DNA from: a virus
Length of the DNA: 45,426 nucleotides
Strand: one strand, 5' to 3'
Virus record (IMG/VR): IMGVR_UViG_3300027736_000077
Span: 1 to 45,426 of that record
Positions 12,691 through 24,125 of the stretch are shown piece after piece. Positions within the stretch are counted from its first letter, which is position 1. Each line of letters opens with the position of its first letter. The notes under the pieces are model-generated. The model did no database searches and had not been told where the DNA came from. It worked only from the letters and a program-made list of their open reading frames with translations. A program made the position numbers and the translations under genes.

Positions 12691-12926
12691 CACTTGTCTG
12701 CTTTGTGATCTAGCTTATCTACTATCTTGCTTAGCATTTCTTTAATGTCTTTTAGATCGCTGCGATAATCTTCACGCATGACAAATTCTCTGGGTAGCTC
12801 CTCACGAAGCTTAGCCAGATCATTCTTTAGCTCTTTCACAGCAGCCCATATTTCTCTAGCAAACCAGCCAACTAACGAGAAGAGAACAGCAATGACAGAG
12901 TTAACGACATGTTGAAGATCATCCAT
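12690..12926 (-). CDS. single-span membrane protein with coiled-coil tail
   Basis: A 78-residue protein with one N-terminal membrane segment (VVNSVIAVLFSLVGWFAREIWAAV), then an extended charged coiled coil ending IKEMLSKIVDKLDHKADK. This layout is common for small phage membrane proteins in lysis regions, such as accessory holins. The start overlaps the stop of the kinase gene (TAATG). Confidence 0.65.
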   Translation of the reverse strand: MDDLQHVVNSVIAVLFSLVGWFAREIWAAVKELKNDLAKLREELPREFVMREDYRSDLKDIKEMLSKIVDKLDHKADK

Positions 12927-13768
12927 TACACACCCATTTTCTTTCTAATTTCCGTAGCAGAAATTGCATGAGTGGCAGCATCAAACACTTCTTGTTCAAT
13001 CTTGTAGCCAACGTCTCTACCATATGTGATGTTCACGACATTAGGTACAAGCTGAATCTCATACTGTCCTTGATACAAAGGATCAAGATCGCGCCTAATC
13101 AAATCTTTGACTTGCTCAGCAGCAAAAGGATTAGAACCGTTCCACCCTTGGCAGTCTCTGATCTGAATAACCACTTGACCTGTCTTGGCAATGGCTCTGT
13201 CAAACAAAGCACGATGCCCCGGATGCCACGGTTGCCAGCGTCCTAACATCTGCACTGTTTCTTTTTTCCAATCAAACACAGGACGGCGGCGCTCATCAAG
13301 GATATGATTGCCGATGAACTCAGCCCACTTATCGCAGTCTTGTTCTGTCACTCTGAAGTCGTAGACTGTTGGAGGAATGAATGCCTTGTTGGTATCATCA
13401 AAGCGTCCCTTGTCAATGGTGTCTACCCAGATAGTCCAATCAGCTTTGAAGTTGTTACGCATCTCAACCAAGGGAGCTACGAAGTCACAGATGACATAGT
13501 CGCTGTTAGACTTGAGAGCAAACTCAGCCATACGCAAAGACTGACGAATACGTCCTTCATTAGAGAAGTCCCAATCGTTATAGCTCTTGCGTACATCGTC
13601 TGCATTGAACCACTGCACACTGCACTTATAGCTTGTGGGAATGAAGTCCATTGCCCGATAGGCTGGCATGTTCTTAACTGTTGAATTCTCCTCAAGATAT
13701 TTCTTGAGTGCAGCAGCTAGATATGTCTTGCCAGATCCGGGCAGACCCATGATTAAAATCTTTTTCAT
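12926..13768 (-). CDS. bifunctional APS-kinase-like kinase / nucleotidylyltransferase
   Basis: Residues 1-160 are a P-loop kinase: Walker A GLPGSGKT (8-15), then WFNADDVR and DWDFSNEGRIRQSLRMAEFA, which match the substrate and helix motifs of adenylylsulfate kinase (CysC), and a DFVAP segment at the place of the CysC ISP motif. Residues 172-280 are a nucleotidylyltransferase: GRWQPWHPGH (H182-x-x-H185) and ISATEIRKKM, typical of the NMNAT/cytidylyltransferase superfamily. If the kinase is a true APS kinase, it would make PAPS, the donor for the sulfotransferase encoded nearby. The partner domain is not an ATP sulfurylase by motif, so the substrate chain is uncertain. Confidence 0.75.
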   Translation of the reverse strand: MKKILIMGLPGSGKTYLAAALKKYLEENSTVKNMPAYRAMDFIPTSYKCSVQWFNADDVRKSYNDWDFSNEGRIRQSLRMAEFALKSNSDYVICDFVAPLVEMRNNFKADWTIWVDTIDKGRFDDTNKAFIPPTVYDFRVTEQDCDKWAEFIGNHILDERRRPVFDWKKETVQMLGRWQPWHPGHRALFDRAIAKTGQVVIQIRDCQGWNGSNPFAAEQVKDLIRRDLDPLYQGQYEIQLVPNVVNITYGRDVGYKIEQEVFDAATHAISATEIRKKMGV

Positions 13769-14346
13769 TCTTTAATCGCTTTCATTTTGATAAGTGTGTG
13801 TACTGCTACGTTGTTTGCTTCACGCATCAACCGGCGAAACATGAAGTCTTCATCATGGGTGATTGTCTTATCTTCCATCTTCTTCTTCATACGCTCTACC
13901 ATCTCTGCATAGAACTGGTCATATTCAAAATCAAACCAAACCATTTCCCAATTCACGTTGTACTTAAGACCCATTCCAGAACTGGAGCCATAGGCTGCAA
14001 TGTGTTCCTTGTTAGTCTTTTGGCAGAACATATACATGCCACCTACAGTGATTGGCCTACAGTGTGTAGGATCTGAGTAGAAGTTATCGTGGAAATGATG
14101 AGGCACAACAATGTCAAGAATTGCGCCGTGCTTTGCAACACGATACAGTTCTTGCATTAGTCCAATGAACCCACTCCCGATATGCTCAAGAATGTGATGT
14201 GCTCTAATTTCATCTACTGAGTTGTCCTCTAGTGGAAGCTTTTCTTTCTCAATGTTGCAGAGAAAGTCAGGCTCCACTAAAGGATCATCATCAATATTGA
14301 GAAATCCATCAATGCGTTTATAACCGCTACCCAGATTTATTTTCAT
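13765..14346 (-). CDS. SAM-dependent methyltransferase (class I)
   Basis: A 193-residue Rossmann-type methyltransferase. Motif I is INLGSG (residues 3-8), followed by an acidic NIDDD end of strand 2, LPLEDNSVDEIRAHHILEHI (the Methyltransf_11-like DxVxxxHVLEH region) and LYRVAKHGAILDIVVPHHFH. The substrate cannot be read from sequence; it has no DNA-methylase catalytic motif (no NPPY or DPPY). Four-base overlaps on both sides put it in one translational unit with the kinase gene and the small protein upstream, and close to a sulfotransferase/glycosyltransferase, so a sugar or surface modification is a reasonable inference. Confidence 0.8.
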   Translation of the reverse strand: MKINLGSGYKRIDGFLNIDDDPLVEPDFLCNIEKEKLPLEDNSVDEIRAHHILEHIGSGFIGLMQELYRVAKHGAILDIVVPHHFHDNFYSDPTHCRPITVGGMYMFCQKTNKEHIAAYGSSSGMGLKYNVNWEMVWFDFEYDQFYAEMVERMKKKMEDKTITHDEDFMFRRLMREANNVAVHTLIKMKAIKE

Positions 14347-14735
14347 AGAAGTGCGTCTAGTTCGTCATGAGTTGTACAAGCATCTATTGTAGCTTGTTTT
14401 GTAACCATAGCCTGACGAGCTAGTTCAATGGCAGACGCATCAAACGTCAGCGGGTTGCTGGCTTGCTGGTTGACCACACGCTGGAACTCGAACTGGGCAT
14501 TGCCCTTCATGCCGCCTTTGCGCTCGTCCACCGAGATGTCGAACGTGCCGTACACAATTTGCACTGGGTCTTGGCTGATATCAAAGGTGTGGGCTGTGTA
14601 GCCTTGACGATGGGCTGTGATTGCAGGGCGCACTTCAACAGCGTTTTTCCAGCCGTTGTTGCCAACACCTTCAGATGGTGGAGTGTCCCAGCATTGCTTG
14701 ACCTCACCGTTAACTACTTGCACATATAAAGACAT
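14343..14735 (-). CDS. tail-associated small protein with assembly-type C-terminus
   Basis: A 130-residue protein opening with MSLYVQVVNGEVKQCWDTPPSEGVG, a beta-rich start often seen in small phage tail proteins, and ending in a helical segment (ELARQAMVTKQATIDACTTHDELDALL) similar to the C-termini of tail-fibre assembly or attachment proteins. A good ribosome site (AAGGAG) precedes the ATG. It follows a propeller gene. The function is inferred from position. Confidence 0.55.
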   Translation of the reverse strand: MSLYVQVVNGEVKQCWDTPPSEGVGNNGWKNAVEVRPAITAHRQGYTAHTFDISQDPVQIVYGTFDISVDERKGGMKGNAQFEFQRVVNQQASNPLTFDASAIELARQAMVTKQATIDACTTHDELDALL

Positions 14736-14756
14736 AAAAATACTCCTTGTAAAAAA

Positions 14757-15974
14757 TTAAATTGATTTTAAAGCTAGTGTAAACCCAGCGCCAGACATTA
14801 TGTCTGACCATTTAGTAAGTGAGCCAACTTGTTTTGGGGAAGAGTATGCTGTAGTATTTCCAAGACCTAACTCCCCATTTGGAGAAGAACCCCAGCCCCA
14901 TAAAGTACCATTTGTTTGAATAGCTAAAGTGCTGTAACCACTACCTGATGCTTTTAACCAATTAGTAAGTGCGCCTACTTGTTTTGGGGAAGAATAATTT
15001 GTATTGTTTCCAAGCCCAAGAACCCCACTAGAATTGCTACCCCAACTCCATAATGTTCCATCAGTTTTAATTGCTAAGGACATTTCCCCACAAGGAGATA
15101 TTTTTGACCAGTCAGTTAATGCTCCAACTTGTTTTGGTGATGAATAATTTGTTCTATTATTTAAACCGAGTTGACCAGCAGCGTTATAGCCCCAAGACCA
15201 CAATGTTCCATCAGTTTTAATAGCTAAAGTTTGCGCTCTTCCTGCATAAACATTTGACCAAGCAGTTAAAGCACCAACTTGTTTTGGAGAAGAATAATTT
15301 GTTGTGTTTCCAAGGCCAAGTTGACCATTATTATTTCTACCCCAAGACCATAACGTACCATCGGTTTTAATTGCAATAGTAAAATATGATCCACAGGCTA
15401 CCTTTAACCAGCTAGTTAAAGCGCCTACTTGCTTTGGGGATGAGTAGTAGGTTACGTTTCCTAAACCAAGACCACCTAGAGCGTTATATCCCCAGCCCCA
15501 TAATGTTCCATCAGTTTTAATTGCAATTGCCGCCGTGCCGCCGCCAGTACTTATAGTACTCCAGTTAGTCAGAGCGCCAACTTGCTTTGGGGATGAGTAA
15601 GCTGTTGTGTTGCCCAGACCAAGCGCACCAGAACTAGCAGTCCCCCAACTCCACAAAGTCCCATCTGTTTTAATGGCAAATGAAGCACCATCAGCTTTAC
15701 CAATATTCAGTTTTGACCAAGTAGTCAATGACCCAACTTGCTTTGGAGAAGAATAATAAGTCCTGTTATTTAAACCAAGATTGCCATTGTTGCCATTTCC
15801 CCAACTCCATAATCCATTTGGGGCAGCAACACCCGGAGTAGGCCACAAACTTTGACCTAACCAATACTCAACTTGATCAATTGTCCAAATACCAGATGCG
15901 GACGCAGTTGCCCAATTGCCAGACGGAACTGGAGCAGTCTTGCTGATTATTCCACCGGGGTACTTTGTAGACAT
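14757..15974 (-). CDS. RCC1-type seven-bladed beta-propeller protein (copy 3), probable receptor-binding tail protein
   Basis: After a 55-residue N-terminal domain (PGGIISKTAPVPSGNW, then GIWTIDQVEYWLG...LWP), the protein is seven repeats of about 52 residues. Each repeat has an AIKTDGTLWSWG strand, a GxLGLGN turn and YSSPKQVGALTNW. This is the RCC1/BLIP-II fold. The N-terminal GIWT...WP pattern is one I associate with phage tail proteins and may anchor it to the tail. The start overlaps the stop of the sulfotransferase gene (TAATG). One of three paralogues in this block. Confidence 0.8.
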   Translation of the reverse strand: MSTKYPGGIISKTAPVPSGNWATASASGIWTIDQVEYWLGQSLWPTPGVAAPNGLWSWGNGNNGNLGLNNRTYYSSPKQVGSLTTWSKLNIGKADGASFAIKTDGTLWSWGTASSGALGLGNTTAYSSPKQVGALTNWSTISTGGGTAAIAIKTDGTLWGWGYNALGGLGLGNVTYYSSPKQVGALTSWLKVACGSYFTIAIKTDGTLWSWGRNNNGQLGLGNTTNYSSPKQVGALTAWSNVYAGRAQTLAIKTDGTLWSWGYNAAGQLGLNNRTNYSSPKQVGALTDWSKISPCGEMSLAIKTDGTLWSWGSNSSGVLGLGNNTNYSSPKQVGALTNWLKASGSGYSTLAIQTNGTLWGWGSSPNGELGLGNTTAYSSPKQVGSLTKWSDIMSGAGFTLALKSI

Positions 15975-17743
15975 TAAGCTACGCTCCTAAGTGCTGGCTT
16001 TGCGCCCAAGCGGTCTTTGATGCGGTCAAACGGGGCTTGCCAGTCGCCAAAGACTTCTTGCCTGAACAGGCGCATCGAATCATAGTAAGGTGTTTTGTCG
16101 CCGTCAAGGGCGTACAGATAGTATCCCATTACAGGAATGACCACCCAAGTCTCAATACCCATAGCGGATGCCAGATGGCTCACGCTGGTGCAGGACGATA
16201 TCACCAAGTCGCAGCTTGCCACCGCATTGCGGGTCTCATCCCAAGTGTTGAGCGGAACACGGTTCACCCAGATCGGGCAAGCCTCGGCACCTTCATCACG
16301 CTGCAAGCTGATGAACTCGTAGTCTGCATCCTTGACGGCGTTGAACAGAAGCTCGTAGGGGAACCGCTTGTTGTGGTCGTCCTCAAACTTGCTGTTTCCC
16401 TGCCAGCGCAGTCCAATGCGTTTCTTGCGGCCTTTGATAGTGGGCGGCTTGGCAATGTACGGGTCACCACGCAAGTCACTCATCTCATAGCCAAGATAAT
16501 TAGGGGCTGTCATGCCATAGCACCAGAAGTCGTGGTATACACCAAACTCAGCGCCAACTTGTACAACTGCCGACACACCTTCAATGCCAGAGAACAGGCC
16601 AGCCAATTGACCAGAGCAGCACACCACCACTTTATTACCACGAGCTACCAAGTCACGAGCATAGCGCACCTGATGAATCTGATCACCTAAGCCATGATCG
16701 CAATACAGTAAGATCGTACCCTTAGTCTTACCATCCCACTCAGGCGCAGGAGAGTCTGGGCGTTTCTCGCCAATGATTCCACAATAGCGACCACGATCCA
16801 TCTGCTTATAGCCTTCAGCAATCTTCCCTTGCTTGAGCAAGTACCAGCTACGGTTATAGGCAGCACGATGATCTGTAGGGCGCTCTGCATGCAGCTTCTC
16901 TGACAAGCGCCAGCCTTCAGCAAAGTCACCCATCTTACCGGCAGCTACTTGCAAATCTAGATCATCAAGCTCTGGCAAAGTGCGGTTGCCGCCTGCCCAG
17001 AACTCTGGCTGGCAGAATTGGTTGTAGTGGTGCTTGAGCAGGTCACGAGCGTTGTCGTTGTGTTGCTTTTCCAGCTTGGGCTTGACATCGTGCATTCCAG
17101 CATAGCCATGCAGATTTTCATCGTCTTCTTTTACACTAGATCCATCAATGTTGCTGAAATCGTACTCGTAGTCGGGTAGCCCCAAGAACTCATGGATACG
17201 GGCCAACTCAGCGCGGGGGTCAGACAGCAGTTTGTCGTACTCAACGAACAGGAAATTCTCTGGCATGGCTTGGTAGCCAGCCTCTACGGACAGGTAAGCG
17301 GCCTTGAGGTGATCTGCAAGTTGGCCTGAGTACATGAACGCATCCAGATCGTCAGGCTTGGCAACACGGACAAACGATGCCATGCAGTCAGGCACTGGAC
17401 GAACGGTAGCGATTATCTTGCAAGGGCGATTCAGCACCTGAGCCATTGCGCCCATGATCTGTGGAATGGGCCAGCCACGGGACTTGTCGATGATGACGGG
17501 CTTGTCGGTGTCATCATAGAACGCATCAATACAGCCACGCATGGTCTGCGCCAGCTTCTTGCGCTCTGGGTCATTGTCATTGAGCAAACCAGCAGAGTGC
17601 CAAGTGTTTGCCAAGCCATCCAGAGCATGAACCAAGCCCGATGTGGTGGACACATGGGTCATGGGGTTCTGGTTGAGGATAGCCGCAAGCACGGTGGAAC
17701 CGCTGCGGGGAATGCCAGAGAGGAAATGTAGTGTTTTGTTCAT
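15974..17743 (-). CDS. sulfotransferase / TPR / glycosyltransferase fusion
   Basis: Residues 1-230 are a PAPS-dependent sulfotransferase: LSGIPRSGSTVLAAIL is the 5'-phosphosulfate-binding loop, and FLFVEYDKLLSDPRAELARIHEFLGL is the 3'-phosphate-binding region. A TPR-like helical stretch follows (AAYNRSWYLLKQGKIAEGY). The C-terminal 230 residues match TPR-linked glycosyltransferases: GLGDQIHQVRYARDL, GLRWQGNSKFEDDHNKRF and ASCDLVISSCTSVSHLASAMG. The start used is the ATG that overlaps the upstream propeller stop (ATGA), not an earlier in-frame codon. By eye the gene is clearly more GC-rich than the propeller genes on both sides. It probably sulfates and glycosylates a surface or tail component. 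Confidence 0.8.
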   Translation of the reverse strand: MNKTLHFLSGIPRSGSTVLAAILNQNPMTHVSTTSGLVHALDGLANTWHSAGLLNDNDPERKKLAQTMRGCIDAFYDDTDKPVIIDKSRGWPIPQIMGAMAQVLNRPCKIIATVRPVPDCMASFVRVAKPDDLDAFMYSGQLADHLKAAYLSVEAGYQAMPENFLFVEYDKLLSDPRAELARIHEFLGLPDYEYDFSNIDGSSVKEDDENLHGYAGMHDVKPKLEKQHNDNARDLLKHHYNQFCQPEFWAGGNRTLPELDDLDLQVAAGKMGDFAEGWRLSEKLHAERPTDHRAAYNRSWYLLKQGKIAEGYKQMDRGRYCGIIGEKRPDSPAPEWDGKTKGTILLYCDHGLGDQIHQVRYARDLVARGNKVVVCCSGQLAGLFSGIEGVSAVVQVGAEFGVYHDFWCYGMTAPNYLGYEMSDLRGDPYIAKPPTIKGRKKRIGLRWQGNSKFEDDHNKRFPYELLFNAVKDADYEFISLQRDEGAEACPIWVNRVPLNTWDETRNAVASCDLVISSCTSVSHLASAMGIETWVVIPVMGYYLYALDGDKTPYYDSMRLFRQEVFGDWQAPFDRIKDRLGAKPALRSVA

Positions 17744-18912
17744 GTTTTTAATGCTGCGCCAAAAGTGCCACCACTGCTTGATACTTGAGTCCAAGTAGTT
17801 AAAGCACCAACTTGTTTTGGTGATGAATAAGTTGTTCTATTATTTAGACCAAGTTCTCCATTGCCACCATAACCCCAATCCCACAAAGTTCCATCAGTTT
17901 TAATGGCTAATGTTGTGTTGTTAAAAGCACCAATTTTTGACCAGTTAGTTAAAGCGCCAACTTGTTTTGGAGATGAATAGTAGGTTGTATTGTTTTGCCC
18001 AAGTTCTCCATTACCGTTATACCCCCAAGACCATAAAGTGCCGTCTGTTTTAAGCACTTGGCTAAAATACACACCCCCACCACCGTTGCTCCAAGTGGTT
18101 AAAGCACCAACTTGTTTTGGTGATGAATAACTTGTTCTATTACCCAATCCAAGTTGACCATCTGCATTTTTACCACAGACCCATAAAGTACCATCAGTTT
18201 TTGTAGCTAAAAGATGGAGTCCTCCGGGAAATATGTTTGCCCAAGTAGTTAAAGCTCCAACTTGTTTTGGAGAAGAATAATAAGTTCTATTTCCTAATCC
18301 TAATTGACCATCTGCATTTCTTCCCCAAGACCATAAAGTACCATCAGTTTTAATTGCAAAACAAGCATAGATTTTAGCCATTGCAACAGATGACCAAGTA
18401 GTTAATGACCCAACTTGTTTTGGGGAGGAATATTTTGTTCTGTTTCCTAAACCGCATTCTCCACTCAGATTAAATCCCCAAGTCCATAAAGAACCATCAG
18501 ATTTAATAGCTGCTGCTGAGTAATAACCAGCACTAACTTTAAGCCAATTAGTAAGTGCGCCTACTTGTTTTGGGGATGAGTAGTAGGTTACGTTTCCTAA
18601 ACCAAGTTGTCCTTGGGAATTGTTTCCCCAAGTCCAAAGTGAGCCATCATTTTTAATAGTAAGCATCCAATTACGTCCACCTGTAATTTGATACCAAGTA
18701 GTAAGAGAGCCAACTTGTTTGGGAGAAGAATACGAAGTTTGATTGCCTAATCCTAAAGTGCCATTAGTTCCGCTTTCACCCCAAGTCCAAAGGTAATAAC
18801 CAGTACCAATAGGTGGGTTAGGCCAAGTCGATGCCGCCACAGCCTGTGCTTGTGACTGCAATGTCCACTTGCCTGAGTATTGAACGCCTGATATAGATAC
18901 TATTGTTGCCAT
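17740..18912 (-). CDS. RCC1-type seven-bladed beta-propeller protein (copy 2)
   Basis: A 390-residue paralogue of the two other propeller genes. It has a short N-terminal domain (SGVQYSGKWTLQSQAQAVAASTWP) in the style of phage tail proteins, then seven repeats each with a DGTLWxWG strand and a YSSPKQVGALTTW end. The repeats are AT-rich and very alike at DNA level. The tail-receptor role is inferred from the location just after the tail fibre and from the repeat fold. Confidence 0.8.
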   Translation of the reverse strand: MATIVSISGVQYSGKWTLQSQAQAVAASTWPNPPIGTGYYLWTWGESGTNGTLGLGNQTSYSSPKQVGSLTTWYQITGGRNWMLTIKNDGSLWTWGNNSQGQLGLGNVTYYSSPKQVGALTNWLKVSAGYYSAAAIKSDGSLWTWGFNLSGECGLGNRTKYSSPKQVGSLTTWSSVAMAKIYACFAIKTDGTLWSWGRNADGQLGLGNRTYYSSPKQVGALTTWANIFPGGLHLLATKTDGTLWVCGKNADGQLGLGNRTSYSSPKQVGALTTWSNGGGGVYFSQVLKTDGTLWSWGYNGNGELGQNNTTYYSSPKQVGALTNWSKIGAFNNTTLAIKTDGTLWDWGYGGNGELGLNNRTTYSSPKQVGALTTWTQVSSSGGTFGAALKT

Positions 18913-18915
18913 ACT

Positions 18916-20046
18916 TTAACCTATTGCAACTGTGTGTGTATTACCACAGCTAACTTTCTGCCACGTTGTCAAAGACCCAACTTGTTTTGGTGACGAATAA
19001 TAAATTATATTGCCCGATCCTAGTTGACCGTAATTATTAACACCCCACGACCATAGTGTGCCATCAGTTTTGATTGATGCAACAAAAGAACCACTCTTTG
19101 CACCCGAAATCTGTGACCAATTAGTAAGGGCTCCAACTTGTTTTGGTGAAGAATATTTAGTTATATTTCCTAATCCTAATCCTCCATAACTGTTATATCC
19201 CCAAGACCAAAGACTGCCATCTGTTTTTATGGAATATGTAGAATATCCTGATGCAGAAATAGTTAACCATGTTGTTAACGCACCTACTTGTTTTGGTGAA
19301 GAGTAGTTTGTTATATTACCAATTCCTAACATCCCAAATTCATTATATCCCCAAGTCCATAATGTGCCATCTGTTTTAACTGCTACTGTATGATTTTGCC
19401 CACCTACAATTGATGCCCACGTGGTTAGAGCACCAATTTGTAGTGGAGATGAATAGTTAGAAGCCGTTGTTCCATAACCTAGTTGACCATAACTATTTTG
19501 ACCCCATGACCAAAGAGTACCATCTGTTTTAATACCTAAAGAGTGGAAGCCACCAGTAGCAATTTTTGACCAAGTTGTTAATACACCAATCTGCTTTGGA
19601 GAGGAGTAACTGGTAAGATTAAAAAGCCCTAATTGACCAAAAGCGTTTGAACCCCAACTCCACAATGTGCCATTAGTTTTTGTAGCTAAAGTATAATTTC
19701 TACCAGAAGCAATCGTAGACCAGTTAGTAAGTGCGCCTACTTGTTTTGGGGAAGAATATTTTGTTGTGTTTCCTAATCCTAGTTGACCGTTTGAATTTAT
19801 TCCAAAAGTCCACAAGGTGCCATCAGATTTAATTAACGCTGAGTGTTGATACCCACTGGAAATACTTGACCAATCAGTAAGTGACCCAACTTGTTTTGGA
19901 GATGAATAATAAGTTCGATTATTCAAGCCAAGCTCACCATCGGCATTGTAACCCCAAGTCAACAAATTGTACCCAAGAGTAGCCGTCTGCGTCCCCAGAG
20001 GATTGAACCCCGGCTTAACAATAGCAGCTTGCCAGCGCATTGACAT
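18916..20046 (-). CDS. RCC1-type seven-bladed beta-propeller protein (copy 1)
   Basis: A 376-residue protein with a short, distinct N-terminus (MSMRWQAAIVKPGFNPLG) and seven RCC1-like repeats. One repeat is variant (TTASNYSSPLQIG), the others have YSSPKQVG. An AAGGT ribosome site precedes the ATG. It lies between a small beta-rich protein and the second propeller gene, so it belongs to the tail or adsorption module. Confidence 0.8.
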   Translation of the reverse strand: MSMRWQAAIVKPGFNPLGTQTATLGYNLLTWGYNADGELGLNNRTYYSSPKQVGSLTDWSSISSGYQHSALIKSDGTLWTFGINSNGQLGLGNTTKYSSPKQVGALTNWSTIASGRNYTLATKTNGTLWSWGSNAFGQLGLFNLTSYSSPKQIGVLTTWSKIATGGFHSLGIKTDGTLWSWGQNSYGQLGYGTTASNYSSPLQIGALTTWASIVGGQNHTVAVKTDGTLWTWGYNEFGMLGIGNITNYSSPKQVGALTTWLTISASGYSTYSIKTDGSLWSWGYNSYGGLGLGNITKYSSPKQVGALTNWSQISGAKSGSFVASIKTDGTLWSWGVNNYGQLGSGNIIYYSSPKQVGSLTTWQKVSCGNTHTVAIG

Positions 20047-20462: not shown

Positions 20463-22562
20463 TTAGAATCCCATAACCATTGCAAAGGCAATAGCTTTAC
20501 CTGCTGACACACCAGCAGTACCCCATGTAGGTGCAGCACCTGCGCCAGCAGAAAGCAGCGCTTGTCCTGACGTACCTGCTGCACCCGCTATTGTAAGGCC
20601 AGTTGTAATGTTTAGTGTAGCAATTGTTGGGTTTGTTCCCAACACAACAGAGCCTGTACCAGTTGCTGTACTAAAATCAGTGAGGCCAGCTTCCCAATCA
20701 GCAGCGGTGGTTAGTGTAATACCAATACAGGTAACCATAGCAGTTATTCCAGCAGGTACTGTAATCACTGCATTGCTGCCAGAAGAATTAATAGTGAGTG
20801 TACCAGTGCTGTTGTTACAAATGTGGAATGTCCATCCTGTAGCCAAAGTGCTAGTCACTGGAAGCTGAATAGTCTGAGCAAGAGTACCTGTAAATACTTG
20901 ATAGTAGCTGCTGGTATTTGTCAAGGTGGTTGTAGCACCTGCTGTGGCTGTGGAAGTAAATCCCATCAGCTTTGCCATAGCCTGAGTAGCAGAACTAGAA
21001 GCTGTACCACCATTTGCAAAAGGCAAGATGCCAGTTACTTGTGATGTAAGATCTACATTGGTAACTGCTGGGACATAAGCAACTTGCCAAGCACTGCCAC
21101 TCCATACCCGCATTTCATTGCTGGTTGTATTGAAGTACAGCGCCCCTGTAAGCAGGGCGTTACCATCATTATCTACAGTGGGGTTAGATGCCTTAGGGCC
21201 AAGATATCTATCATCAAAGCTATCATAGCTTGCAGCAGCAGATGTAGCAGAAGAAGCTGCATTTGTAGCTGATGTAGAAGCATTGGACTCAGACGTAGCA
21301 GCGTTGCTAGCAGAGGTGGCAGCAGCAGCAGCAGATGTTGCAGCAGATGTTGCGCTGCCTAAGATGCCATCAACATACAGCTTTGTTGTTGCGTCTTGAT
21401 TTGCTGTAGGAGTTCCAAGACCAGTGATCTTGCTTGAGCCCATAGCAATAGCACCCGACATAGTGCCACCAGTTAAAGAAAGCTTTAAAGCATCGGCGGT
21501 ATCTACATAGGTCTTGGTTGCTGCGTCTTGATTAGCTGTGGGATCTCCAAGACCTGTAATCTTTGAAGTACCCATAGCAATAGCACCCGACATAGTACCA
21601 CCGGCTAGAGCTAACTTTGTAGCAATGCTATTAGTGACAGTGGTTGCAAAGTTTGCATCAGCACCCAAGGCTGTTGACAATTCATTAAGAGTATCTAAAG
21701 CACCCGGTGCTCCATTAACAAGAGCACTGATAGATGTATCAACATAGCCTTTGGTTGCAGCATCATTAGTATTGGTGGGGCTGGTAAGATTGGTAATGGT
21801 GGCGGCAGTGCCAGCATTCATGTTTAGCCCACCATTGATGGTGACATCGTTGAATGAAGAAGTGCCAGTAGAAGCTGTTACGTTCCCTGTAAGTCCACCT
21901 GTAACAGTTCCTGTAACGTTTCCTGTAACGTTTCCTGTAACGTTTCCTGTCACTGCGCCAGTAAGGCCACCAACAAATCCTGTGTTGGCTGTGATGGTTG
22001 TACCAGTGATGGCTTGTGCGCTAGTGCCACCAATCACTGCACCGTTGATAGTACCCGCAGAAATGGCAGCAGTGCTGGCAATAAGCGAAGAAGCTGTAAC
22101 AGTTGTTCCAGTAATTGCGGCAGCAGTGGAGTTACCAATGACAGTGTTATTGATCGTGCCACCAGAGATAGTAGCTGTAGTTGCTGCAAGTGTAGCAAGC
22201 GTTGCTGTACCAGCTAAATAGAAGTCTTTAACCTTGAAAGAAGAAGAGCCAATGTCTAATACATTGTTGGTAACAGGAACAATTAAATTGTTCTGGAAAC
22301 GTACTTGTTCAACAGCAGCACTGCTTACATTAACAAATACACCAACTCTATTGTTGGTGGAATCAGTGGCTACCTTGTTATATCCATTGTCATCAGATAT
22401 AAAGGGAACAACGTGTCCCTCAGCAGCAGTGCCGTCATGTCTGTGACCAGTAGCCAAAGCAAAAGCATCACGAATTAAATTAAATTCATTGTTAAGTGGT
22501 GTCGCTCTAACTACAGCGGTAGGAACGATATCAGCAGATGATTGTCTAGTGTAGCCTGTCAA
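20463..22562 (-). CDS. tail fibre protein
   Basis: A 699-residue fibre. The start is TTG, chosen because AAGGAG lies about eight bases upstream and no better codon is available. The N-terminal domain (residues 1-80, including LNNEFNLIRDAFALATGHRHDG) is a typical fibre base. It is followed by a Thr/Ala-rich shaft, a GNVT repeat tract, two LSLAGGTMSGAIAMG(T/S)SKITGLG(D/T)P-type fibre repeats around ATKxYVD segments, an Ala/Ser coiled region and a C-terminal tip. The C-terminus GKAIAFAMVMGF is a fibre ending I associate with phages of this kind. It mediates host contact. Confidence 0.88.
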   Translation of the reverse strand: MTGYTRQSSADIVPTAVVRATPLNNEFNLIRDAFALATGHRHDGTAAEGHVVPFISDDNGYNKVATDSTNNRVGVFVNVSSAAVEQVRFQNNLIVPVTNNVLDIGSSSFKVKDFYLAGTATLATLAATTATISGGTINNTVIGNSTAAAITGTTVTASSLIASTAAISAGTINGAVIGGTSAQAITGTTITANTGFVGGLTGAVTGNVTGNVTGNVTGTVTGGLTGNVTASTGTSSFNDVTINGGLNMNAGTAATITNLTSPTNTNDAATKGYVDTSISALVNGAPGALDTLNELSTALGADANFATTVTNSIATKLALAGGTMSGAIAMGTSKITGLGDPTANQDAATKTYVDTADALKLSLTGGTMSGAIAMGSSKITGLGTPTANQDATTKLYVDGILGSATSAATSAAAAATSASNAATSESNASTSATNAASSATSAAASYDSFDDRYLGPKASNPTVDNDGNALLTGALYFNTTSNEMRVWSGSAWQVAYVPAVTNVDLTSQVTGILPFANGGTASSSATQAMAKLMGFTSTATAGATTTLTNTSSYYQVFTGTLAQTIQLPVTSTLATGWTFHICNNSTGTLTINSSGSNAVITVPAGITAMVTCIGITLTTAADWEAGLTDFSTATGTGSVVLGTNPTIATLNITTGLTIAGAAGTSGQALLSAGAGAAPTWGTAGVSAGKAIAFAMVMGF
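21898..21953 (-). repeat. 12-bp tandem repeats within the tail fibre gene
   Basis: About 4.7 copies of the 12-base unit CCTGTAACGTTT (plus strand) with minor variants, encoding GNVT repeats in the fibre shaft. Such tracts can change copy number by slippage and so alter shaft length. Confidence 0.85.
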
Positions 22563-22574
22563 AGTGGTTTCTCC

Positions 22575-24125
22575 TTAGCGTCTATCATTCATAGAGTAGT
22601 CTAATACAAGTCCTTGAATGGTATGGCTGGCATTAGTATCATTAGTAACATAATTGAATGCAATGGAGAATCCTGAGCCTTCAATATTTGTTTTTACAAC
22701 GGGCGATGGATTACCATCATAAATTGCGGTGGCATCATATACAGCTTCGTTGTAATAAGCAGCAGTACCTACTGTTGCAATATTAAAGTTTGCTGGATTA
22801 AACACACCAACGCTATCATCAAAATCATAGCTAACACCAAATACAATTGATGTTGTCCCTTCGCTTCGCAAGTATGTAGTTATATTATAAAAGTTCTTTC
22901 TTATCGTAGGATCTTGAAAATAATAATAGGGGGTCTTGTACACACTAAGGATGGAAGCTCCAGCAAAGGAAGTACCAAGCTCTTGTCTATACACTTTACC
23001 AGTGGAGTCCCCATGAATTACAATTTCATCTACACCAACATATCCGCTAGAAGCACACGTGACAGCAAAACCATACATCTGAGAATATTCAAAACCCAGA
23101 CCAGACTCGTTAGCTCTCAGGCCACCCAACAATCCGAAGTTACCTTCGTTAGGGAAGAACAGTCTGAACTGTGACTTCTTACGCAAGACAACAGAACTAA
23201 GCGTCTCAGGATCAATAGAGCCAGCAACAATCTCATTGAGCAATGTACTGACAGTGAATTGAATCTGTCTGGATATAGTCTCTAGTTCAACGTCACCAAT
23301 CTTATTCGTACCTGCAACAGGTCTAAAGCCGTCTGGGCCAAGGAAGACTAGATTACCACCAAGCTCAATAACACTATCAGGTACAACACAACCTAAGTTG
23401 TTTGTCACTTCATTCATAACAAAGTCTGCTATGCTATTACCAGACAGACTCTTAATGTGGTTCTTGCCAAAGATGTACAGCGTGTCCCTAAACATCTTGA
23501 TCTGCACAATCTCAAAGCCTACATTGATAACACCAGCACCAGTGGCTGGATTGAAATCAGTTTCAGCTAGTGGTGCTGAGAAATAAAGATTGTACGGATC
23601 TGTTGGATCGCCAGCAAGGAATATATGGTTCTTAAAAGCCTCTGCATACTTAGGCGAGTTAGGTGCATAAGTGTGTGTAATCTGTGTGTACGTTGTACCG
23701 TCATAGACAGCGGCTGGATTAATACCGTCCACCATCACAAACTTGTCAGCACTCCAGTTGTATCTAGTAAACCTTACCTTCTTAACACCCGTCATTGTGA
23801 TAGTGCCGGGAGTGGCGATAGCTGTCCAAGCACTACCTGTCCAACGATAGAGATAATTTGTACCAGCAGAAGGTGCTCTGCAAGCAAATATACCAGCGTT
23901 TAAATTCTCAGCTACGCAGACACCTAAGACATTACCAGTTCCTGTTACAGTGCCATAGGAATTGGTGAAGCCACTTATGCGCCTATAGCCACCACTGATA
24001 GATGGCTCATAGTTGATAAGCTGTGTGGCAGATCCGGGTTGTACTTCGCTTTGAGACAGCACATCCCTGTTGGTATTCATACCACCAGCACATACTGCCT
24101 TAAACGCAAGTATTCTATCTGCCAT
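22575..24125 (-). CDS. tail hub / stabilisation protein (P22 gp10-like position)
   Basis: A 516-residue beta-rich protein. It opens with a segment typical of podovirus tail tubular or hub proteins (VLSQSEVQPGSATQLINYEP, then GYRRISGF) and continues with repeated strands (FRDTLYIFGKNHIKSL, LVFLGPDGFRPV). The gene sits immediately after the adaptor gene, with an 11-base overlap, in the order seen in short-tailed phages. It probably forms the tail tube or hub below the portal. Confidence 0.75.
   Translation of the reverse strand: MADRILAFKAVCAGGMNTNRDVLSQSEVQPGSATQLINYEPSISGGYRRISGFTNSYGTVTGTGNVLGVCVAENLNAGIFACRAPSAGTNYLYRWTGSAWTAIATPGTITMTGVKKVRFTRYNWSADKFVMVDGINPAAVYDGTTYTQITHTYAPNSPKYAEAFKNHIFLAGDPTDPYNLYFSAPLAETDFNPATGAGVINVGFEIVQIKMFRDTLYIFGKNHIKSLSGNSIADFVMNEVTNNLGCVVPDSVIELGGNLVFLGPDGFRPVAGTNKIGDVELETISRQIQFTVSTLLNEIVAGSIDPETLSSVVLRKKSQFRLFFPNEGNFGLLGGLRANESGLGFEYSQMYGFAVTCASSGYVGVDEIVIHGDSTGKVYRQELGTSFAGASILSVYKTPYYYFQDPTIRKNFYNITTYLRSEGTTSIVFGVSYDFDDSVGVFNPANFNIATVGTAAYYNEAVYDATAIYDGNPSPVVKTNIEGSGFSIAFNYVTNDTNASHTIQGLVLDYSMNDRR

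Follow-up and report, generated by a model that had tools for sequence, protein, structure and literature searches.

The window analysed here, a 45,426-nt (45.4-kb) stretch of viral DNA (IMG/VR virus record IMGVR_UViG_3300027736_000077), carries among its tail and lysis genes a locus that is probably a self-contained sulfation cassette, in which adenosine 5'-phosphosulfate (APS) and 3'-phosphoadenosine 5'-phosphosulfate (PAPS) would be supplied to a sulfotransferase that modifies an acceptor, most likely a tail or adsorption protein. The virus infects bacteria and is kin to the HMO-2011-type podoviruses, its portal protein matching that of a Manatee Spring record at 79% and that of HMO-2011 at 68%. 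Two proteins are central to the proposal, both encoded on the minus strand: a 280-amino acid (aa) protein (12926-13768) that joins an APS-kinase-family domain to a nucleotidyltransferase domain, and a 589-aa fusion of a sulfotransferase with a tetratricopeptide repeat (TPR) glycosyltransferase (15974-17743). The nucleotidyltransferase would form APS from ATP and sulfate, the kinase would phosphorylate the 3'-OH of APS to yield PAPS, and the sulfotransferase would use PAPS to sulfate the acceptor; phages that possess only the kinase would take their APS from the host. The glycosyltransferase half of the fusion probably attaches the sulfate-bearing sugar, or else acts on the same acceptor.

The kinase domain (residues 1-160; 13289-13768, minus strand) scores 29.7 bits against the Pfam family APS_kinase (PF01583, cut-off 21.1), and relatives that consist of the kinase only (142-165 aa) score better, at 34-62 bits. 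An AlphaFold2 model of the 280-aa protein (mean predicted local distance difference test score 88) has APS kinases or PAPS synthases as all of its 13 best PDB matches. In an alignment with E. coli CysC, the equivalents of D65, R68, F77, R82, F107 and P110 are invariant, and the position of N85 reads Q, N or H in the phage kinases. An earlier sequence-only reading of the window had called this gene APS-kinase-like and had suggested structure prediction as a check; family score and fold bear it out, but the second domain of the protein had been overlooked. The same reading would have given up the idea for a kinase devoid of APS-binding residues, and on this point the outcome is divided. Within the first half of this site, the residues that contact APS (D65, R68, F77 and R82) are retained, but the lid stretch (RDPKGLYKKARAGE...FTG) is absent from the kinases aligned with E. 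coli CysC. The missing lid weighs against the proposed cassette, as do the replacement of the phosphorylatable active-site serine by A or C and the scores against the TIGR00455 equivalog, which reach at most 56.7 bits at a cut-off of 138.7. Judged by its sequence, the domain belongs to the APS-kinase family without reaching the strict equivalog cut-off.

The first half of the fusion (sulfotransferase domain, residues 1-255; 16979-17743) scores above the Pfam cut-offs for Sulfotransfer_3 (PF13469, 56.0 bits versus 27) and Sulfotransfer_1 (PF00685, 42 versus 22). PAPS binding, on which the sequence-only reading had made its proposal depend, is predicted from conserved motifs: the 5'-phosphosulfate-binding (5'-PSB) loop P12 R13 S14 G15 S16 T17 (PRSGST) and the 3'-phosphate residues R115 and S123 are kept, and are nearly invariant among the sulfotransferase relatives. 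The top 13 PDB matches found with Foldseek for the model of this half are tyrosylprotein sulfotransferases. A TPR-like helical linker (residues ~261-321; 16781-16963), visible as helices in the AlphaFold2 model and in the matches to the TPR-containing proteins SPY and O-GlcNAc transferase (OGT), leads to a GT-B-type domain (residues ~335-580; 16004-16741) whose Foldseek matches are SPY, OGT and the ADP-heptosyltransferases WaaF/WaaC. As modelled, the second half is a TPR glycosyltransferase, while the fold match makes tyrosylprotein sulfation a candidate activity of the first; the two halves share predicted folds with the tyrosylprotein sulfotransferases and SPY/OGT at a sequence identity of just 8-21%.

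Relatives of the kinase occur on at least 591 IMG/VR stretches, of which 80 (75-98% identical) were retained. Where a fused enzyme has at least 4 kb of upstream sequence, a hidden Markov model (HMM) search recovers a sulfotransferase in 48 of 56 loci; of the eight negatives, L059 does encode a sulfotransferase supported by Pfam, and in L024 and L033 there are genes resembling divergent ones. All 56 kinase-only loci whose upstream sequence exceeds 4 kb include a sulfotransferase, and the kinase-only enzyme takes the same slot as the fused enzyme, beside the same sulfotransferase. The search also works in the other direction, as loci found via the sulfotransferase domain contain the kinase in 31 of the 33 cases with enough sequence. 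A stand-alone sulfotransferase stands immediately ahead of the kinase in 43 loci, with a 4-nt overlap in 40 of them, and sulfotransferase-glycosyltransferase fusions up to 91% identical to that of the window adjoin either the kinase-only or the fused enzyme. The two forms are exchangeable, and the activity that they share should therefore be that of the kinase. Sequence comparison likewise indicates that the block is not a chance set of open reading frames (ORFs), because hundreds of relatives retain the kinase gene together with its partner.

This linkage runs contrary to the published interpretation of the cysC gene carried by freshwater and hadal phages, where it is regarded as an auxiliary metabolic gene of assimilatory sulfate reduction that boosts sulfate assimilation by the host (PMC10914622, PMC9529941). 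The genes in question encode CysC-like kinases of similar size and are probably of the same kind, a likeness that does not stem from direct comparison; the genes described here are tied to a sulfotransferase and tail genes, and some have the extra nucleotidyltransferase domain. An assimilatory role is very unlikely for them given the sulfotransferase linkage at 56/56 kinase-only and 48/56 fused loci. Homologues in SAR11 and SAR86, moreover, sit in genomes lacking convincing CysH/CysD-type proteins, and Pelagibacter, of the SAR11 group, is reported to possess cysC and cysQ without an assimilatory pathway, its cysDNCHIJ/sat set being incomplete (PMC5069961). Inspection of the conserved neighbour clusters, as opposed to a systematic search over all phages, turned up no cysH-type reduction genes. 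The linkage argues for phage cysC of this kind supplying PAPS to a sulfotransferase rather than to assimilation, and it suggests that cysC genes counted under sulfur assimilation in surveys serve sulfation.

The genes assigned by the sequence-only reading to 12926-17743 on the minus strand lie exactly there, with all ORFs recovered, and its central proposition, that a PAPS-making enzyme supplies a sulfotransferase encoded in the same unit as propeller-type tail proteins, draws strong support from family scores, from the predicted structures and from a very tight and conserved linkage. A single, leftward and translationally coupled unit is plausible from the ORF spacing, since neighbours overlap by 1-4 nt or sit 3-21 nt apart. 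The sulfation block is a swap-in module: relatives of another window gene (22575-24125; 56-92% identical) occur without kinase and sulfotransferase, except on two contigs already counted, and while many of these control contigs are short, those with long downstream sequence lack the block as well.

The picture is less uniform among the distant, DLP_6-type fused enzymes, which call for caution on the proposed role in sulfation. A sulfotransferase-like gene lies nearby in only 27 of 74 such loci; these include two further sulfotransferase-like families directly upstream of the fused enzyme, and in several loci of one of these families two sulfotransferase-like genes run straight into the fused gene. 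Stenotrophomonas phages with a ~37% relative have no recognised sulfotransferase nearby, and in Stenotrophomonas phage Bhz60 (L083:5559-6735) the distant fused gene overlaps a NADAR-domain gene and precedes an annotated DNA methyltransferase gene. In Bhz60 and DLP_6 (L082) the enzyme may thus serve another role. DUF2061 small membrane proteins, encoded soon after the kinase-nucleotidyltransferase gene at L230:1908-2111, L042:6815-7048 and other loci, occur in 26 of the 74 distant-type loci; a transporter or a partner in sulfate activation is a possible function.

The second domain of the 280-aa protein is an HxGH nucleotidyltransferase of ~110 residues (residues ~165-280; 12929-13276, minus strand) with the motifs GRWQPWHPGH, YGRDVGY and ISATEIR, the C-terminal part reading ISATEIRKKM. 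Three results count against its being an ATP sulfurylase. A profile search matches it to NadM-type nicotinamide mononucleotide (NMN) adenylyltransferases (E 1.6e-10) and not to any ATP sulfurylase, the Sat catalytic domain (PF01747) gives no Pfam match in it, and hhalign against a Sat protein aligns only 18 columns around IS[GA]TKIR. The protein might accordingly be read as a reversed NadR-like enzyme of nicotinamide adenine dinucleotide (NAD) salvage, a nicotinamide riboside kinase joined to an NMN adenylyltransferase, and the NADAR neighbour of the Stenotrophomonas phage relatives fits such a role. NAD salvage nevertheless appears far-fetched. The alignment with NadM, which shares the motifs GRxQPxHxGH and ISxTxIR with the phage domain over ~70 residues (MJ0541 and relatives), ends after ~75 residues, with hardly any alignment to NMN adenylyltransferases beyond, and does not cover the NMN-binding part; the phage domain is shorter and has an invariant YGR[DG]VGY-like motif in place of that part. 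It reaches only 26 bits against the NadM equivalog TIGR01527 (cut-off 181), the adjoining kinase is APS-kinase-like in both sequence and fold, and the operon is shared with kinase and sulfotransferase. In SAR86, finally, its presence tracks that of sulfotransferases, and the gene is absent from half of the genomes although NAD synthesis is essential.

These chromosomal relatives are what points to sulfate activation. Among the bacterial genomes scanned, those of SAR11, SAR86 and some large alphaproteobacteria encode both kinase and nucleotidyltransferase, in many cases on two genes that overlap. Sat was not found in 27 of 30 genomes carrying both, strong CysD/CysH-type matches are confined to four of the 30, all of them large alphaproteobacteria, and Sulfotransfer_3 is above cut-off in 21. 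AprA exceeds its cut-off in 16 of the 30, none of which is a SAR86 genome, and in five SAR11-type loci the kinase/nucleotidyltransferase lies near aprBA. In the SAR86 order, for which 61 genomes were compared, the nucleotidyltransferase and Sulfotransfer_3 each occur in 30; both are present in 28 and neither in 29, with 2+2 discordant genomes (Fisher p=9e-13, a value that overstates independence, as the genomes are related). Sat is found in only one of the 61, and no nucleotidyltransferase-positive genome has a convincing CysD. A sulfotransferase gene lies 547-576 nt upstream of the nucleotidyltransferase in 12 genomes of the order, and the three examples examined in full have the operon order sulfotransferase-kinase-nucleotidyltransferase. 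The strength of the association has to be tempered, as it drops among larger genomes (p 3e-6 at >=1.2 Mb, 0.03 at >=1.3 Mb) and all presence/absence counts for SAR86 and SAR11 come from genomes of undefined completeness.

Because of this co-occurrence, the shared operon and the near-absence of known ATP sulfurylases, the nucleotidyltransferase is the strongest candidate for forming APS in SAR86 and SAR11; it would give these bacteria, in which sulfotransferases are present but most known ATP sulfurylases missing, a concrete enzyme for this step. Tentatively, it could be an ATP sulfurylase of a third, minimal type with no sequence relationship to Sat and CysDN. Fused to the lid-less APS kinase or paired with it, it would then constitute the smallest PAPS synthase, serving SAR86, SAR11 and numerous aquatic phages, and the phages would employ it to sulfate and glycosylate their own receptor-binding proteins. 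As separate observations, some SAR11 genomes have aprB/aprA (APS reductase) at a distance of a few kb from the fused gene (L403:6567-8893, L406:9316-11642), in organisms reported to be without sat and cysDN, and one of the few SAR11 genomes with Sat (Pelagibacteraceae, L483:1477-2547) encodes a 356-aa Sat-type ATP sulfurylase beside a glycosyltransferase-like gene.

CysC-family kinases with substrates other than APS exist, such as the CysC-like enzyme in the phosphoramidate pathway of Campylobacter, which phosphorylates CDP-amidate. By analogy, the kinase-nucleotidyltransferase could make another 3'-phosphorylated nucleotidyl donor, from which the sulfotransferase-fold enzyme would transfer a group other than sulfate, and it fits this idea that the sequence of the nucleotidyltransferase is not that of an ATP sulfurylase. 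We consider it improbable all the same, as the motif GRxQP...ISATxIR is of the adenylyltransferase type, the APS-site residues are retained in the kinase, kinase-only enzymes serve the same sulfotransferase, and there are no conserved nearby genes for another activated group.

With respect to the acceptor, the leftward unit of the window runs from a tail fibre gene (20463-22562; phrog_38058 tail fiber, 3.7e-41) via three RCC1-type propeller genes toward the lysis genes. The propeller genes, all on the minus strand like the tail fibre gene, lie at 18916-20046 (266 bits), 17740-18912 (196 bits) and, between the fusion and the smaller genes, at 14757-15974 (405 aa, 226 bits); the RCC1 repeats of these proteins score 196-267 bits, over the Pfam cut-off. 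Cassettes with a sulfotransferase-glycosyltransferase fusion (type I) are placed between RCC1 genes, and those with a stand-alone sulfotransferase (type II) are preceded by a tail protein assigned by eye as C-lectin-like in 39 of 43 loci and by a 143-aa conserved protein in 38 of 43. In the isolate Synechococcus phage S-SRM01 (L499:4155-18486), an island right after a long tail fibre gene comprises three RCC1 genes, a TPR-glycosyltransferase, a 2-oxoglutarate (2OG) oxygenase, a sulfotransferase, another glycosyltransferase and an epimerase; there is no kinase in this stretch. The island, which belongs to a cultured phage, is a candidate for tail modification, and with this isolate the sulfation of phage adsorption proteins becomes testable. 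A conserved tyrosine was considered as the target and rejected, to the detriment of the proposal: almost all RCC1 repeats of the window contain YSSPKQVG, but the S-SRM01 repeats read RSTP.

The same chemistry might instead be directed at the cell, a surface polysaccharide or lipid of the host being sulfated and glycosylated late in infection so that re-adsorption or superinfection is blocked. This is a lesser but substantial possibility. The glycosyltransferase half resembles the ADP-heptosyltransferases of lipopolysaccharide synthesis, ADP-heptose-synthesis-like genes replace the kinase gene in L124, and genes for an RfaE-type nucleotidyltransferase and an epimerase-like protein are found close by in L063 and L081. 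Set against this, the unit sits among tail and lysis genes and is gained and lost with RCC1 or lectin-like tail proteins, and the best fold matches of both halves of the fusion include protein modifiers (tyrosylprotein sulfotransferase, SPY/OGT). Since the cassettes travel with RCC1 or C-lectin-like tail genes, and the S-SRM01 island lies by a tail fibre gene, their company moderately favours modification of the tail, most likely of a distal tail or adsorption protein of the same unit such as the RCC1 propellers, over that of a host surface glycan. The L124 locus (L124:4051-6528) is a curiosity in its own right, an otherwise typical sulfotransferase-glycosyltransferase cassette with genes for an RfaE-type nucleotidyltransferase, a cupin, a HAD phosphatase, a PfkB-type kinase and an epimerase in the kinase's place.

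Dedicated PAPS synthesis genes that accompany one sulfotransferase are known from NodPQ-NodH of Sinorhizobium and RaxPQ-RaxST of Xanthomonas. The phage sulfation cassette resembles these systems, whose sulfotransferase modifies an exported molecule, in encoding the PAPS supply with one sulfotransferase; unlike them, it has in place of a CysDN-type ATP sulfurylase a minimal APS kinase, alone or fused to the ~110-aa HxGH nucleotidyltransferase, and it lies inside a tail gene block. The 280-aa protein shares with the animal PAPS synthases (PAPSS1/2) an N-terminal APS kinase and a C-terminal nucleotidyltransferase of the HxGH superfamily on a single polypeptide, but it lacks the PF01747 domain and the APS-kinase lid and is much smaller (280 versus ~620 aa). 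The nucleotidyltransferase is thus possibly a new enzyme within an otherwise known PAPS-plus-sulfotransferase scheme. The role of phage sulfotransferases has been called unclear (PMC10580990), and in the literature searched we found no paper linking a phage APS kinase with a sulfotransferase, none proposing the nucleotidyltransferase as a sulfate-activating enzyme, SAR86 included, and no description of sulfated phage adsorption proteins.

Two smaller genes complete the block, both on the minus strand. The 193-aa protein encoded at 13765-14346 was rightly taken for a methyltransferase by the sequence-only reading, as it matches Methyltransf_11 above cut-off (23.1 bits versus 21.2) and phrog_6636 and would be dependent on S-adenosylmethionine. 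It is an optional member of the set, however, present in 11 of the 56 fused-enzyme loci, and may add an extra decoration. The 130-aa protein encoded at 14343-14735, between the tail protein and the enzymes, has no match in Pfam or PHROG family searches and is kept at the same place in 34 of 80 kinase loci; it is possibly a tail-fibre assembly factor. In three further loci (L057:1512-2495, L058:5428-6411 and L053:2299-3249), a protein with no Pfam match, combining a 2OG-Fe(II) oxygenase-like N-terminus with a degenerate kinase domain (P-loop GLPESSK), is encoded immediately ahead of an intact fused kinase gene.

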